Source: Glacieibacterium frigidum
GTDB lineage: Bacteria > Pseudomonadota > Alphaproteobacteria > Sphingomonadales > Sphingomonadaceae
Length of the DNA stretch: 64,000 nucleotides
Assembly (NCBI RefSeq): GCF_007097155.1
Contig: NZ_VJWA01000001.1
Span: 901,501-965,500 of the forward strand
Direction: 5' to 3'
This document shows positions 49,877 through 55,459 of this stretch, piece after piece. The number at the start of each line of letters is the position of its first letter. The first letter of the stretch is position 1. Under the pieces are notes generated by a model. It ran no database searches and was not told where the DNA came from. It was given only the letters and a program-made list of their open reading frames with translations. The translations under genes were made by a program, and so were the position numbers.

Positions 49877-50956
49877 ATGATCCTCAGCCTCGCCCTGCTC
49901 CTCGCCGCCGCCACCCCCGCACCCGTCGCCGCCCCGCCCGCCGCCGCGGTCAGCGCGTGGCCGACGACCGAGGGCGACGTGACGATCCGCGGCTTCACCT
50001 TCGCCCCGGGCGAGACGCTCGACGTGCGGATGCACTACACGACGCTGGGCACGCCGCGCCGCGATGCGCAGGGGCGGATCGACAATGCGGTGATGGTGCT
50101 CCACGGCACCGGCGGGACGGGCAGGCAGTTCCTGCAGCCGCAGTTCGCCGACCGGCTGTACGGCGCCGGCGCGCCGCTCGACCTGGCGAAGACCTATGTC
50201 ATCCTTCCCGACAGCATTGGGCACGGCAAGTCGTCGAAGCCGAGCGACGGGCTGCGCGCCAAATTCCCGCGCTACAATTATGCCGACATGGTGGCGCTGC
50301 AGCACCGGCTGCTGACCGAGGGGCTGAAGGTCGACCGGCTGCGCCTGCTGATGGGCACGTCGATGGGCTGCATGCACGCCTTCGTCTGGGGCGAGACCTA
50401 TCCGGGCTTCGCGCGCGCGATGATGCCCACGGCGTGCCTGACCGTGGAGATCGCGGGGCGCAACCGCATGTGGCGCAAGCTGTCGATCGACGCGATCCGC
50501 GCCGACCCGGCCTATGCGGGCGGGGAGTACAAGACGCAGCCGGTAGCGGGCCTGCGCACCGCCGTCGCGCTGTCGATGATGGCGGGGTCGGTGCCGCTGC
50601 GCCTCCAGGCCGAGCTGCCGACGCGCGCCGCGGTCGATGCGGCGGTCGAGAAGCGGGTGCCGACCGATCTGGCGGGGCGCGACGCCAACGACCTGATCTG
50701 GCAGCTCGACGCCTCGCGCGATTACAACCCGTCGCCGGACCTCGCGAAGATCACCGTGCCGGTCGTGTGGATCAATTCGGCGGACGATTTCATCAACCCG
50801 CCGAACCTCGGCATCGCCGAGCGCGAGGTCAGGAAGATGCCCCGCGCGACCTTCCGCCTGATCCCCGAAAGCGTCGATGGCCGCGGCCACTCGACCCACA
50901 CCTGGGCGGCCTTCTGGATCGACGACCTCAAGGCGCTGATGAAGGCGACCGACTAG
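49877..50956 (+). CDS. exported alpha/beta hydrolase (MetX-like)
   Basis: The 359-residue protein has a clear signal peptide ([24 protein letters not shown]) and then an alpha/beta-hydrolase fold most like the homoserine O-acyltransferase (MetX) family: the nucleophile Ser162 in [11 protein letters not shown], Asp in [11 protein letters not shown] near residue 303 and His in [10 protein letters not shown] near residue 338. True MetX enzymes are cytoplasmic, so this one is more likely a periplasmic hydrolase. It ends convergent with the isomerase gene (4 bp overlap). Upstream is gatC on the other strand. Confidence 0.82.
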
Positions 50957-51531
50957 GCGACGGCGGCCTCGACCCAGTCGAGCCGGTCCTGGCCGAAATA
51001 CATCGCGCCATCGACGAAGAAGGTCGGCGCGCCGAACACGCCGCGCGCCACCGCAGCCTCGGTTGCGGCCTTGAGCCGGTCCTTCGACGCCTGCGCCTCG
51101 GCGATCGCCCCGAGTTCGGCCGGGTCGAGGCCGGCGGCTGCGAAGGCGGCCGCGGCAGCCGCGGGGTCGCCCATGTTCACCGGCTGCGCCCACATCGCGT
51201 CGAAGGTCGCGTCGACATAGGCCTCGAAGCGCGCATCGTCCTTCAGCCCTGCCGCGATGCGCATCAGCTGCAGCGTGTTGATCGGGAAGTGCGGATTGAA
51301 GTTGAGCACGATCCCCTCGCGCGCCGCGAAACGCCCCATGTCGGCGTTCATGTACGCCCCCTTGGCCGGCACGCTCACGGGCGAGGCATTCCCCGTCGCC
51401 TTGAAGACGCCGCCGAGGAGGACGGGCACATAGTCGACCGTCGCGCCGGTGCGGGCGATAATCGCGGGCAGCCGCTTGTGCGCGAGATAGGTCGTCGGCG
51501 ACCCGAAATCGAAGAGGAACTCGATTACCAT
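50953..51531 (-). CDS. 2-hydroxychromene-2-carboxylate isomerase-like (kappa GST fold)
   Basis: A 192-residue DsbA/kappa-GST-fold protein. It starts [21 protein letters not shown], in which Ser11 fills the glutathione-activating position of NahD, the 2-hydroxychromene-2-carboxylate isomerase of naphthalene degradation; [29 protein letters not shown] is the typical C-terminal signature. The true substrate is unknown. Its start overlaps the SDR gene by 7 bp; it is the last gene of the MarR-led operon. Confidence 0.85.
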
Positions 51532-52244
51532 TTTTCGCTCCAGGGCCTGAGGTCGAGCTCGTGCGTCCAGGCGTCGCGCGGCTGGTCGTGGAGCATGGTG
51601 AAGATGGCGGCGATGCTGTCCGGGTTCAGGATGCCGTCGTCGGCCTTCATCGCATAGCGTTCGGGGAAGGTGTCGCGGATGAAGGCGGTGTCGATCGCGC
51701 CGTCGACGACGACGTGCGCGACATGCACCCCCAGCGGCCCGAGCTCGCGCGCCATCGACTGCGCCAGCGCGCGCAGCGCATGCTTGCCGCCCGCGAACGC
51801 CGCGAAACCGGCGCCGCCGCGCAGGCTGGCGGTCGCGCCGGTGAAAAGGATGCTGCCCCGCCCGCGGGGGACCATGCGCCGCGCCGCCTCGCGCCCGGTC
51901 AGGAAGCCGGCCAGCGCGGTCAGCTCCCAGATCTTGCGGTATTTGCGCGCCGTCTCGTCGCGGATGGGGGAGGGGACGTTGGCGCCGATGTTGAACACCG
52001 CGACCTCGCACGGTCCGATCTCGGCCTCGACGCGGTCGAAGAGCGCGACCATGGCATCCTCGTCGCGCGCGTCGCAGGCAATCGGCACGCAGGCGTTGCC
52101 GTCGGCCTCGATCTGCGCCGCGAGTGGCGCGAGCGCGTCCGCGGTGCGCCGCACCGGCACGGCGACGAGGCCCTTCGCCGCGAATGCGCGCGCGATTGCG
52201 CCGCCTGTCGCGTCGCCGGCACCGATGACTATTGCTGCGGACAT
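51525..52244 (-). CDS. short-chain dehydrogenase/reductase with a Phe in place of the catalytic Tyr
   Basis: The 239-residue SDR starts [25 protein letters not shown] with the nucleotide-binding loop, and has FNIGAN (in place of the usual NNAG). The active-site segment reads [23 protein letters not shown]: the family Y-x3-K motif is F150-x3-K154. This FAAF form belongs to a sub-group that lacks the tyrosine, so the normal proton relay cannot operate as usual. Product unknown. Overlaps the MDR gene by 16 bp and the isomerase by 7 bp. Confidence 0.82.
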
Positions 52245-53239
52245 ATCACGATCTTTCCTTGCGCTGTCCCGGCGCCGATCATCCGGTGGCCGTCGGCGAT
52301 GCGGTCGAGCGGCAGTTCGGCGGCGATTGCCGGCACGATCCTGGCCTCGGCGGCGAGGCGCAACACCTCGGCCAGATCGTCGCGGTAGAAATTCGGGTGT
52401 GCCGTCTGCCACTGGGTGATCAGATAGCCGCGCAGGCCCTTGCCGGTCATGAACTGCGCCTGCGCACTGCGCCGCGGCGAAGTCAGCATCGCCTTCGCCG
52501 CACGCAACGGATTGAGCCGCTCGCTGCCGCCCAGCGCGCCCTGGAAGCCGAACATCACGAGCGCGCCGCCGTCCCGCAGCGCCGCCTCGCTGATCCGTAC
52601 ATTGGGTCCGCCGACGCCGTCGAACACCGCATCGACCCCGCCGCCGCTCGCCGCGCGGACCTGCGCCGCGACATCGCCGCCGCGGTCGATCGGCGTTGCC
52701 CCGTGGTCGCGGACGAAGTCCCGGCGACTGCCGCTCGCGACGCCGTAGGTGTCGATGCCGAAGTGCCTGCCCAGCGCGAGCAGGATCGACCCGACGCCGC
52801 CCGCCGCGCCCCATACCAGCATTTTCTCGACCGACGGCTGCGCGACGCAGCGGGTCAGCATCTGGAAAGCGGTCAGCCCGTTCAGCACCAGCGCCGCCGC
52901 CTGCGCACTGCTGACGCCGCCAGGCACCGCCACGCAGTCGGCGGCACGCACCACGGCGAAGCGCGCGGCGCCGCCGGTCACGGTCAGCGCGGCGATGCGC
53001 GTGCCCTCGGCAAAGCCCTCGCCGCCGATCACCCGCCCGACGACTTCATAGCCCGGGGTGAAGGGCACCGTGACCCCCGGGTACACGCCCATCCGCATCA
53101 CGACGTCGGCAAACGCGATGCCCGTCGCCTCGACCGCGACGAGGACTTCGCCCGGCCCGGGCATCGGCATCGGCACGTCGACGACCTCGATGCGCTCGGG
53201 CCCTCCGGTCTTGCGAACGATCGCGGCGCGGTTCTGCAT
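52229..53239 (-). CDS. MDR-family oxidoreductase (quinone oxidoreductase-like)
   Basis: The 336-residue medium-chain reductase starts MQNRAAIVRKTGGPERIEVVDVPMP and has GIAFADVVMRMGVYPG, the nucleotide-binding VWGAAGGVGSILLALGRHFG and GGGVDAVFDGVGG. The catalytic zinc ligands of alcohol dehydrogenases are missing (Ala-Asp in place of Cys), so it is of the quinone oxidoreductase/enoyl reductase type using NADPH. It is the fourth gene of the MarR-led operon and overlaps the next gene by 16 bp. Confidence 0.88.
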   Translation of the reverse strand: MQNRAAIVRKTGGPERIEVVDVPMPMPGPGEVLVAVEATGIAFADVVMRMGVYPGVTVPFTPGYEVVGRVIGGEGFAEGTRIAALTVTGGAARFAVVRAADCVAVPGGVSSAQAAALVLNGLTAFQMLTRCVAQPSVEKMLVWGAAGGVGSILLALGRHFGIDTYGVASGSRRDFVRDHGATPIDRGGDVAAQVRAASGGGVDAVFDGVGGPNVRISEAALRDGGALVMFGFQGALGGSERLNPLRAAKAMLTSPRRSAQAQFMTGKGLRGYLITQWQTAHPNFYRDDLAEVLRLAAEARIVPAIAAELPLDRIADGHRMIGAGTAQGKIVICPQQ

Positions 53240-53261
53240 GTCGGTCTCCCCGCCCGCGATG

Positions 53262-53726
53262 CTAGGCGCTGTCGCCGAGCGGGAACACCAGGCAACTCGT
53301 CGTCGCGGTGGCGATCAGCTTGCCGCGGGTGTCGGTCAAGGTCGCCCGCGCCGTCGCGACGCGGCGGCCCGAAGTGATGACCTCGCCGCGCGCCGTCACG
53401 CGCCCCGTCGCGGCGTTCATCGGACGCAGGTAGGTGACGTTCATGTCGATCGTCGTGTAGCCGATGCCGGCCTTCAGCGTCGTGTGTACCGCGCAGCCCA
53501 TGCACGAATCGAGCATGGTCGCCGCATAGCCGCCGTGGACCGTGCCGAGCGGGTTGTAATGCTGTTCGCCGGGCACGCCGCTGAACTCCACCCAGCCTTC
53601 GCCGACGGCGCCGCCGTCGAAACCAAGCAGCAGCGCGATCGGCGCGCGCGGCAGGTCGCCCGCGAACATCGCGCGCATCAGGTCGATGCCCGGCATGGCG
53701 CGCACCGCGTCGAGGGGTAGGGTCAC
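53262..53726 (-). CDS. PaaI-type acyl-CoA thioesterase
   Basis: A 154-residue hotdog-fold thioesterase. The motif EQHYNPLGTVHGGYAATMLDSCMGCAVHT contains the HGG and the catalytic Asp of the PaaI family, which hydrolyses phenylacetyl-CoA-like and other acyl-CoAs. The start is a GTG at 53726 that overlaps the stop of the preceding CC_3452-like gene (GTGA). It is the third gene of the MarR-led operon. Upstream in-frame residues to 53876 look like a shadow. Confidence 0.85.
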   Translation of the reverse strand: MTLPLDAVRAMPGIDLMRAMFAGDLPRAPIALLLGFDGGAVGEGWVEFSGVPGEQHYNPLGTVHGGYAATMLDSCMGCAVHTTLKAGIGYTTIDMNVTYLRPMNAATGRVTARGEVITSGRRVATARATLTDTRGKLIATATTSCLVFPLGDSA

Positions 53727-54025
53727 GACTTCACGTGGCGATTGCAGCGCGCCAGCTCGGCGGCGGCGAATTCGGTGCCGCCAGCGCTGAACGCAACGAC
53801 GCGACCGTTGGCATCGGCGACCGCGCTGCATGCGGCGACGGCGAGACGGGCGCGCGTATCGGCGGGACCGGTGCACGTGGTGCCGCTGCAGCGCCAGACG
53901 CCGCCCTCGCCGACGATCTTCGTCTGGGCGGCGGGCGCAGCGAGCGTCGCGGTGCCGGCGACCGTCTCGGCAAGCGCCGGGGATGCTGCAATTGCAGCTA
54001 TAAGGGCGAGAAGGGCAAAGCGCAT
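53723..54025 (-). CDS. CC_3452-type small exported protein
   Basis: A 100-residue exported protein with signal peptide MRFALLALIAAIAASPALAE and the family segment TKIVGEGGVWRCSGTTCTGPADTRARLAVAACSAVA with its conserved cysteines, plus FAAAELARCN near the end. It is a small periplasmic protein of unknown role. The signal-peptide codons carry a perfect palindrome (53985-53998) that also occurs near the marR promoter. It lies 16 bp after marR and overlaps the thioesterase GTG. Confidence 0.78.
   Translation of the reverse strand: MRFALLALIAAIAASPALAETVAGTATLAAPAAQTKIVGEGGVWRCSGTTCTGPADTRARLAVAACSAVADANGRVVAFSAGGTEFAAAELARCNRHVKS
53985..53998. promoter_or_regulatory. palindrome inside the CC_3452-like gene
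   Basis: GCTGCAATTGCAGC is a perfect 14-bp palindrome. Twelve of its bases, GCTGCAATTGCA, recur at 54509-54520 just upstream of marR. In the coding frame it forces codons such as ATA, GCT, GCA and ATT that are unusual for this high-GC genome, which argues for selection on the DNA. Confidence 0.45.
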
Positions 54026-54041
54026 GGCAGGTCTCCTGAGG

Positions 54042-54491
54042 TCAAAGATGGTCGAAGGCGTCGTCGACGATGAAGCGCAGCGCCGACAGTCGTGACTGGC
54101 CGAGCAGGTCGCCGACCTGGGCCTGCGCGGCGGTCCATGCGGGGGCGGCGGCGCGGACGCGCACCGCGCCGGCATCGGTCAGGCGCAGCAGCTTGGCGCG
54201 GCGATCCTCGGGGTCAGGCTCGATCGACAGCAGCCCGGCGCGCTCGAGGGGGCGCACGAGGCGCGACACGGTCGAGGCGTCGGTCGATCGCTGCTCGGCG
54301 AGCGCCGCGATGCCGACCCCGCGCGACCGGCGCAGCCCGGCCAGAATCCCGAGCTGTCCGACGGTCAGCCCGTGCGGCGCGAGGGCGTCGTCGTAGATCT
54401 GCGTAACCTTGCGCGCCAGCCGCCGCACCTTGAGCGCGATGCAGTCGTCGATCGTCGGGGCGTCGGGTCGAGAGGCGAGGGCGGCAGTCAC
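54042..54491 (-). CDS. MarR family transcriptional regulator
   Basis: The 149-residue protein has the winged helix-turn-helix of MarR: LTVGQLGILAGLRRSRGVGIAALAEQRSTDASTVSRLVRPLERAGLLSIEPDPEDRRAKLLRLT. MarR proteins usually repress their own operon until an aromatic or other ligand binds. The start is a GTG at 54491. It heads a minus-strand run of six genes with gaps of 22 bp or less, and a palindrome lies in its promoter. Confidence 0.9.
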   Translation of the reverse strand: MTAALASRPDAPTIDDCIALKVRRLARKVTQIYDDALAPHGLTVGQLGILAGLRRSRGVGIAALAEQRSTDASTVSRLVRPLERAGLLSIEPDPEDRRAKLLRLTDAGAVRVRAAAPAWTAAQAQVGDLLGQSRLSALRFIVDDAFDHL

Positions 54492-54510: not shown

Positions 54511-54520
54511 TGCAATTGCA
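54511..54520 (-). promoter_or_regulatory. candidate MarR operator in the marR promoter
   Basis: TGCAATTGCA is a perfect palindrome 20 bp before the marR start on the minus strand. GATACAT, a possible -10 box, ends just upstream of it, so the palindrome would cover the transcript start. With the copy at 53985-53998 it is a good candidate for the MarR operator. Confidence 0.5.
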
Positions 54521-54563: not shown

Positions 54564-54767
54564 TCACATTGCCAGTGTCGGCCGGTCGCGCGTCCAGCTG
54601 ATTGCGATACCGAGCGCGAGGCCCGCGATCTCCATGCCCAGCTTGACCTGGCTTGGCGACGGATCGAAGCGGTCCTCGAAGGCCAGCGTCAGCTGCGCGC
54701 CGCGCTCGGTCTGCGCCGCGACGACCGTCGCCACTGCCAGCGCCGCCACGATCGCACCCTTACGCAT
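54564..54767 (-). CDS. small exported/membrane protein of unknown function
   Basis: A 67-residue protein that starts MRKGAIVAALAVATVVAAQ, which could be a signal peptide, and has a second hydrophobic stretch (about residues 42-57). No family recognised. The ATG at 54767 follows GGTGGAGGCGGGG, a strong ribosome site. It lies between marR and the GST gene. Confidence 0.5.
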   Translation of the reverse strand: MRKGAIVAALAVATVVAAQTERGAQLTLAFEDRFDPSPSQVKLGMEIAGLALGIAISWTRDRPTLAM

Positions 54768-54829
54768 CCCCGCCTCCACCTCGTTTCGCCTGCGCGGCAT
54801 AGCCGATCGGCGTGCCCGTCACAACGGCC

Positions 54830-55459
54830 TCACATCTTGCCGCGCATTTCCTCGGGCAGCAGGGCGTCGTCGATCTCGCGGGCACGGGCGGCGGCGGGGC
54901 GGGCGTGGAGACGCGCGGCATAGGCCTCGAACGCCGGCGTCTTTGGCAGCGAGCCGAACGCCAGGCCCCAGGTGATCTGCGCCCCGACATAGACGTCGGC
55001 GGCGGTGAACTGCTCGCCCAGCAGCCAAGGTCCCTCGCCGAGCGCCGTTTCGAGGGTCGAGACGGCGGTTTCAAGGTTGCGATAGCCGACCATCTTCTCC
55101 TGCTCTGCGGGCACCTCGACACCGAGCGACTTGTTGACGATCGCCGCCTCGACCGGGCCGGCGGCGAAGAACAGCCAGCGGTAATAGGCGGCGCGGTCGG
55201 CGGGCGCAGGGGCCAGCCCGGCGTCGGGAAAGGCATCGGCGAGATAGGCGCAGATCGCCGCCGCTTCGGTGACGACCGCGCCGCCGTGGGTGATCGTCGG
55301 CACCTTGCCCATCGGGTTGATCGCCAGGAACTCGGGCGACTGCATCGCGCCCTCGTAACCCATGATCTCGGTCCGGTACGGCGCGCCGACCTCCTCCAGC
55401 ATCCAGCGGACGATCCGTCCGCGCGACATCGGGTTGGTGTAGAAAACGAGCTCGGCCAT
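54830..55459 (-). CDS. glutathione S-transferase
   Basis: The 209-residue protein starts MAELVFYTNPMSRGRIVRWMLEE, with the N-terminal thioredoxin-like GST domain and AINPMGKVPTI containing the cis-proline, and a helical C-terminal domain with LLGEQFTAADVYVGAQITWG. It conjugates glutathione to electrophiles; the substrate is unknown. It is close to the MarR-led operon but separated from it by a small gene. The chorismate mutase gene lies 15 bp upstream on the same strand. Confidence 0.9.
   Translation of the reverse strand: MAELVFYTNPMSRGRIVRWMLEEVGAPYRTEIMGYEGAMQSPEFLAINPMGKVPTITHGGAVVTEAAAICAYLADAFPDAGLAPAPADRAAYYRWLFFAAGPVEAAIVNKSLGVEVPAEQEKMVGYRNLETAVSTLETALGEGPWLLGEQFTAADVYVGAQITWGLAFGSLPKTPAFEAYAARLHARPAAARAREIDDALLPEEMRGKM

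Follow-up and report, generated by a model that had tools for sequence, protein, structure and literature searches.

Six closely packed genes led by marR

The 64-kb window analyzed here, which is the whole stretch of the Glacieibacterium frigidum contig NZ_VJWA01000001.1 from position 901,501 to 965,500, carries a run of six genes on its minus strand. A MarR family regulator is followed by a small exported protein of the CC_3452 family, a hotdog-fold acyl thioesterase, a quinone-reductase-like medium-chain dehydrogenase/reductase (MDR), a short-chain dehydrogenase/reductase (SDR)-fold protein, and a DsbA-fold isomerase of the 2-hydroxychromene-2-carboxylate (HCCA)/kappa type (Table 1). Our main subject is the last two genes, which recur side by side in other genomes and whose SDR has three of its four classical catalytic positions replaced. 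A preliminary description of this sequence had reported six minus-strand genes separated by gaps or overlaps of -16 to +22 bp, and all of these open reading frames (ORFs) are indeed present, with spacings from marR to the isomerase gene of +16, -4, +22, -16, and -7 nt. The six genes make up one packed operon, which is very probably under MarR repression. A scan for sigma-70 promoters returned a single site, on the plus strand within the isomerase gene, and a terminator was not found.

The family assignments made earlier stand for the MarR, CC_3452, MDR, SDR, and isomerase proteins. That of the thioesterase as PaaI type holds only loosely, as the protein passes the general TIGR00369 model and falls below the threshold of the PaaI equivalog model TIGR02286 (27.7 bits versus a cut-off of 118.9). 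The MDR is likewise below the PIG3 threshold (140.2 versus 296.8 bits) and scores under the cut-off in each of its 21 NCBIfam matches; by eye, the Cys and GHE residues that usually serve as zinc ligands are missing. The glutathione S-transferase (GST) gene mentioned in the preliminary description does lie nearby, and nothing that we noticed ties it to the operon.

Table 1. Genes and candidate operator sites at the operon locus, in window coordinates
Feature	Position	Strand	Remarks
marR	54491-54042	-	MarR family PF01047; GTG start
CC_3452-family small exported protein	54025-53723	-	NF047636, 77.1 bits (cut-off 40)
Hotdog-fold acyl thioesterase	53726-53262	-	TIGR00369, 74.6 bits (cut-off 36.6); GTG start
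MDR, quinone-reductase-like	53239-52229	-	MDR/quinone-reductase superfamily
SDR-fold protein (core gene 1)	52244-51525	-	adh_short; PF00106, 3.2e-29
DsbA-fold HCCA/kappa isomerase (core gene 2)	51531-50953	-	PF01323, 1.1e-41
O1, candidate operator	54511-54520	.	TGCAATTGCA, a perfect palindrome; 19 nt before marR (GTG start)
O2, candidate operator	53987-53996	.	Second TGCAATTGCA; begins 46 nt after the marR stop, within the first CC_3452 codons
Alpha/beta hydrolase	49877-50956	+	Convergent overlap with the end of the operon
Possible small gene between the GST gene and marR	54564-54800	-	78 aa, or ~67 aa from an inner ATG
GST gene	54830-55459	-	338 nt from the marR start

The SDR and isomerase genes recur as a pair

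Pairing of the two genes in other genomes was counted from tblastn matches, and gaps are distances between matched ends. Gene calling at the loci relied on codon-position GC, given the antisense ORFs of GC-rich DNA; adjacency was taken from the tblastn matches because gene calling missed the SDR in several loci. Among 80 named loci, the isomerase gene lies directly downstream of the SDR gene on the same strand in 63 (9 to 287 nt between matched ends), is present in some other arrangement in 6 (L030, L058, L059, L060, L063, and L079), and is not in the locus in 11, including L041, which ends at a contig edge. Within the family sample, each of the seven close relatives (L002 to L008) carries the pair. 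At the level of the phylum, 44 of 398 sampled genomes, the window's own included, encode the SDR subfamily (E ≤ 1e-55), with 56 copies besides that of the window, those of L003 and L005 among them. The isomerase is directly downstream of 28 of these 56 copies, and their distribution depends on the distance from the window's SDR. For the 29 best-scoring copies (≥53% identity), the isomerase gene is directly downstream in 25 and divergent in 1 (L116), and it was not found within 1.5 kb of the other 3. By contrast, among the 27 lower-scoring copies (46 to 56% identity), it is downstream of 3 and upstream on the same strand of another 3, with no isomerase within ~1.5 kb of the remaining 21; several genomes of one family in this lower-scoring set hold two to four SDR copies each. 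Since 25 of 29 close copies and only 3 of 27 distant copies are paired, the coupling is a property of the closer subfamily, and the distant copies rule out the pair as a general rule for the SDR subfamily.

By these counts, the recurrent unit is the SDR with its isomerase and not the set of six genes. Among the open-licence titles inspected, none is on the pair or the SDR subfamily, and plasmid records label the SDR only "SDR" and its partner "HCCA isomerase" or "DsbA family"; the pair is thus recurrent yet apparently undescribed. Outside Pseudomonadota, Trichlorobacter lovleyi plasmid pGLOV01 (L112:4899-6874) carries the pair, with a nicotinamide mononucleotide transporter gene after it, between insertion sequence elements.

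The other genes of the operon vary between lineages

The preliminary description took the six genes as the unit and proposed a search for the same set in other genomes. Among the loci searched with the six proteins, all six occur together in the window only, so the six-gene definition proved too narrow, and the part that recurs is the pair. Within these searches, this is one of the two outcomes that the preliminary description had named as refuting it; the other, transcription without MarR control, is not borne out by the palindromes described below. The one other genome of the genus compared, a sister genome (L102), has five of the six in the order MarR-CC_3452-thioesterase-SDR-(GNAT)-HCCA isomerase, in which a GNAT acetyltransferase gene (L102:7741-8217) lies between the SDR and isomerase genes and no MDR match was found (E ≤ 1e-60). 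Among the loci searched, an ortholog of the MDR (79% identity) exists only in L028, in the order DLH-MDR-SDR-HCCA isomerase, with no MarR match within that locus; across 296 genomes of the order, with seven candidates scored per genome, only the window's own genome has an MDR at E ≤ 1e-80. The CC_3452 family was found in 11 of 30 relatives, the window's own genome and its sister included. In the four inspected of the nine other carriers, the gene lies elsewhere, and the divergent gene beside it is of HxlR type in the three that were scanned. At these four loci (L143 to L146), the HxlR-like regulator encoded opposite the CC_3452-family gene has the motif CGLPxALEVMGERWS at its N terminus, and the two genes may form a separate thiol-stress unit.

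Taken together, the sister genome, the order-wide MDR search, and the CC_3452 synteny lead us to reject the six genes as one conserved unit. On the evidence of these searches, the MDR is a rare accessory gene and CC_3452 an accessory, genus-level addition. A hotdog thioesterase gene also stands between the MarR and SDR genes in L021, L022, L025, L027, L043, and L102, and in Marinobacter (L056) one lies downstream of the pair.

The SDR has a rebuilt and strongly conserved active site

Classical SDRs use a catalytic tetrad of Asn-Ser-Tyr-Lys. The corresponding positions 109, 137, 150, and 154 of the window SDR are occupied by Thr109, Ala137, Phe150, and Lys154; the absence of the catalytic Tyr had been noticed earlier, and the loss is larger than was claimed, as the Ser and Asn are gone too. 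The mapping of positions was checked against the SDRs of L075, whose classical tetrad of Asn, Ser, Tyr, and Lys falls on the same four positions. Over 81 SDR sequences, Ala137, Phe150, and Lys154 are constant (81/81), and position 109 is Ala in 57, Cys in 16, Thr in 4, Gly in 3, Ser in 1, and never Asn. Further residues invariant in all 81 are Asn85, Lys104, Trp106, Glu107, Arg127, Arg142, His177, and Asp181, the last of which replaces a Pro of the canonical L075 SDRs. The named loci are biased in this respect, in that one of the six search peptides, FAAFAGGK, includes the Phe; the whole-genome samples nonetheless agree with them on Phe150 and Ala137 for close copies. The combination Ala137/Phe150/Lys154 is also found in L002 to L008 and in both the 29 close and the 27 distant phylum copies, the latter with Ala at position 109 in 26 cases and Asn in 1.

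An AlphaFold2 model of the window SDR (mean pLDDT of 92.8) has the SDR fold, and its closest solved fold is 3h7a, followed by other SDRs. In the printed alignment (E of 5.4e-69), the Ser, Tyr, and Lys positions of the tetrad are filled by Ala, Phe, and Lys in 3h7a as well. NADPH is suggested as the cofactor by Arg32 and Arg33, which lie where strand 2 ends.

Such replacements raise the question of whether the protein is an enzyme at all. It could instead serve as a noncatalytic partner of the glutathione-type isomerase, as a nucleotide-sensing or scaffold subunit. Three of the four tetrad positions are replaced and the replacements are strongly conserved (Ala137 and Phe150 in 81/81, Asn109 in 0/81), the gene is coupled to that of the isomerase in close relatives, and a related clade has lost the Lys as well. 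However, the invariance of Lys154, Asn85, Lys104, Glu107, Arg142, His177, and Asp181 looks more like a working active site, and copies with the same residues exist with no isomerase nearby (24 of the 56 in the phylum sample and 11 of the 80 named loci). We therefore regard a noncatalytic role as improbable.

Related SDRs show further variations. The clade just mentioned, a second one within Sphingomonadales (L009 to L012 and L014 to L018), has His150 and Met154, and no isomerase was found within ~1.5 kb of its members. A third clade, with Asn137, Phe150, and Lys154, also adjoins HCCA-type isomerase genes (L019, L020, and L062:9354-10037; L108:5681-6364 is the same place as L020). Within one family (L158, L159, L163, L167, L169, and L171), two divergent SDR copies lie at most ~3 kb apart, and no isomerase accompanies them.

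MarR has two putative operators and a single conserved cysteine

The window contains two copies of the perfect 10-bp palindrome TGCAATTGCA, versus 0.04 expected, and these two sites, O1 and O2, are its only exact copies in the 3.43-Mb genome. As a control, the same pattern read backwards likewise has two matches per strand in the genome; because this reversed pattern is equally rare, rarity alone is not the argument. The argument lies in conservation across the 12 MarR-bearing loci that were compared (the window, the sister genome L102, L103, L021 to L027, L039, and L043). When variants of one or two bases are included, every one of the 12 loci has an O1-type site where the marR match begins or upstream of that point; 8 of these sites are exact, 3 read TGCATATGCA, and 1 reads TGCATTTGCA, and in L043, site and match overlap by the first bases of the latter. 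In 10 of the 12, an O2-type site starts 2 to 46 nt beyond the marR stop (9 exact and 1 with one mismatch, in L025); it was not found in L022 and L027. In these regions, palindromic 10-mers other than TGCAATTGCA and its variant TGCATATGCA occur in at most 2 of the 12 loci (3 of 12 within marR itself), and the sequences flanking the eight exact O1 copies share only 25 to 56% identity (mean of 34%, ungapped comparison). O1 and O2 are thus very probably MarR operators, one for self-repression and one for the structural genes: since conserved palindromes stand both at the start of marR and before the structural genes, MarR would repress itself along with the enzymes.

These observations also bear on whether the six genes are simply a chance run with no common function. 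The MDR and CC_3452 genes are not conserved members, and a GNAT gene splits the SDR from the isomerase in the sister genome, as a chance run would allow. Against this, the SDR-isomerase adjacency and the MarR-(thioesterase)-SDR-isomerase order recur in other genera, and the unit carries two conserved palindromes, which leaves very little room for coincidence.

MarR contains one cysteine, Cys17, which is invariant among the 12 distinct sequences compared. Its closest solved relative, 4fx0/4fx4, is MosR, which is presented in PMC5823404 as an oxidation sensor with a Cys10-Cys12 switch; in the alignment, Cys17 falls on the first Cys of the MosR CxC motif. According to PMC4360819, inactivation of Bacillus subtilis OhrR takes place at its lone Cys15, and YodB and NemR sense reactive electrophiles such as quinones through thiol switches.

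The isomerase and the neighbors of the pair

The closest solved relative of the isomerase is the HCCA isomerase 2imd (3.7e-22). Its Ser11 aligns with Ser11 of 2imd and is kept in 69 of 73 isomerase sequences, and the FGxP segment is kept in all 73. The window isomerase is the sole match in its genome (E ≤ 0.001), and a glutathione synthetase is also encoded there. From these features, we infer that the isomerase uses glutathione.

Upstream neighbors of the pair were scanned for 56 of 75 loci; the other 19 were dropped as already known MarR, thioesterase, or MDR genes or as short or doubtful ORFs. Downstream neighbors were scanned for 46 of 75, plus one upstream hydrolase. The 56 upstream proteins gave matches to HxlR (16), TetR_N (11), PadR (3), and MarR (2), where one protein may match two models. 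An N-terminal Cys is found in 15 of the 16 HxlR-type neighbors (in the exception, L068, the start of the ORF was called further downstream), and a Cys is kept in 11 of 11 TetR-type neighbors. Quinone oxidoreductases that pass the PIG3 cut-off lie next to the pair in L050 and next to the SDR in L073. The flanking enzymes differ between lineages while the pair stays.

A possible role in electrophile detoxification

The reading that we favor, to which we assign a probability of about 0.43, is that the operon is inducible and serves to detoxify thiol-reactive electrophiles, which would be quinone- or enal-like and of environmental or metabolic origin. MarR would repress its own gene and the enzyme genes through O1 and O2, and modification of Cys17 would release it. 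The isomerase, through Ser11, would use glutathione to add to or isomerize the electrophile. The SDR would bind NADPH by way of Arg32 and Arg33 and pass hydride to an activated C=C bond or a quinoid substrate, working without the Ser-Tyr proton relay and relying instead on Lys154 and the invariant polar residues Lys104, Glu107, Arg142, His177, and Asp181. The thioesterase and MDR may be lineage-specific additions for coenzyme A (CoA)-thioester hydrolysis and enone reduction, and the exported CC_3452 protein may have been recruited within the genus. In favor of detoxification, we count that the regulators beside the pair switch family (MarR, HxlR, and TetR) yet keep a near-invariant Cys. We also count the recurrence of the pair, on a plasmid outside the phylum too, the kinship of MarR with MosR, the largely conserved Ser11 of the isomerase, and the PIG3-type quinone oxidoreductases at L050 and L073. 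The preliminary description had foreseen a MarR-controlled unit that handles an aromatic or reactive compound; its reactive-compound side agrees with the twin palindromes, the lone Cys17, and a glutathione-type isomerase in a genome with glutathione synthetase, and the lack of a ring-cleavage enzyme among the nine local proteins scanned speaks against plain aromatic catabolism.

Several observations weigh against detoxification. MarR is without the second MosR Cys, a thioesterase is not expected as a detoxification enzyme, and Cys is common in HxlR and TetR regulators generally, so that its conservation there is only suggestive. The isomerase is not in 11 of the 80 named loci, and it is downstream of only 3 of the 27 distant SDR copies. 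Genes for CoA ligases and for enoyl-CoA-hydratase-like, FadB/J-like, or FAA-hydrolase-like proteins lie by pairs in L065, L047, L057, and L083, and such acyl-CoA or catabolic neighbors suit catabolism better. A cluster on Polymorphobacter plasmid p29334-1 (L114) comprises isomerase, AMP-binding, thioesterase, flavin reductase, nitronate monooxygenase, and SDR genes, possibly a setting in which the same enzymes serve catabolism.

These points lead to the alternative of a catabolic module, in which the isomerase would carry out a NahD-like, glutathione-dependent cis-trans isomerization of an unsaturated oxo-acid, the SDR, MDR, and thioesterase would process ring-fission or acyl-CoA products, and MarR would sense an aromatic ligand. 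An HCCA isomerase is the best solved relative of the isomerase, MarR matches the HpaR and Saro_0803 models, although under their cut-offs, and the AMP-binding and acyl-CoA-type genes near pairs elsewhere would be at home in such a pathway. However, the pair is constant while its flanking enzymes vary, the SDR is without the Ser and Tyr of classical alcohol dehydrogenases, and no ring-cleavage dioxygenase was found among the nine local proteins scanned. The genome has two matches to the biphenyl-type extradiol dioxygenase model TIGR03213, which score 71.5 and 54.5 bits where 366.45 is the cut-off, and neither is in the window. We hold a catabolic module to be somewhat unlikely. A plain naphthalene-type operon is disfavored, with neither an extradiol dioxygenase nor an aldolase among the nine local proteins and no TIGR03213 match over the cut-off genome-wide (an aldolase was not sought genome-wide).

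Within the detoxification reading, a bolder version would have the SDR, with a new catalytic center made up of Lys154 and the invariant Arg142, His177, and Asp181 in place of Asn, Ser, and Tyr, act on the glutathione adduct made by its partner and so couple NADPH and glutathione in one route. This route would be found across Pseudomonadota, carried further by plasmid, and placed under at least three families of Cys-bearing repressors. We hold this version to be doubtful. Because most of the 27 distant copies are unpaired, it is weakened together with detoxification in general and with a noncatalytic SDR.

Comparison with known systems

The SDR shares the Rossmann fold of classical SDRs such as FabG and the hydroxysteroid dehydrogenases and keeps their Lys as Lys154; it differs from them in that the Asn, Ser, and Tyr of the tetrad are replaced and that Asp181 stands in place of Pro. 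The active site, though conserved, departs from the textbook SDR mechanism. To the same subfamily belongs 3h7a, a short-chain dehydrogenase from Rhodopseudomonas palustris released in 2009 by structural genomics; no function is given in the database entry matched, and no paper on it was found in the open-licence literature. With this solved homolog, the candidate operator, and the lone Cys of MarR, both sensing and chemistry are directly testable.

Operons governed by the thiol-switch repressors NemR, YodB, OhrR, and MosR likewise place a Cys-bearing repressor beside reductase-type genes, and MosR is the best solved relative of the MarR protein. The enzymes there are NemA or OhrA, whereas here they are a tetrad-less SDR and a glutathione-type isomerase. 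The isomerase, for its part, has the DsbA-like fold, Ser11, and FGxP in common with 2imd and the kappa-class GSTs. Its gene is coupled to that of an SDR rather than to genes of the naphthalene pathway, and such isomerase genes in genome surveys should not be taken as evidence of polycyclic aromatic hydrocarbon degradation.

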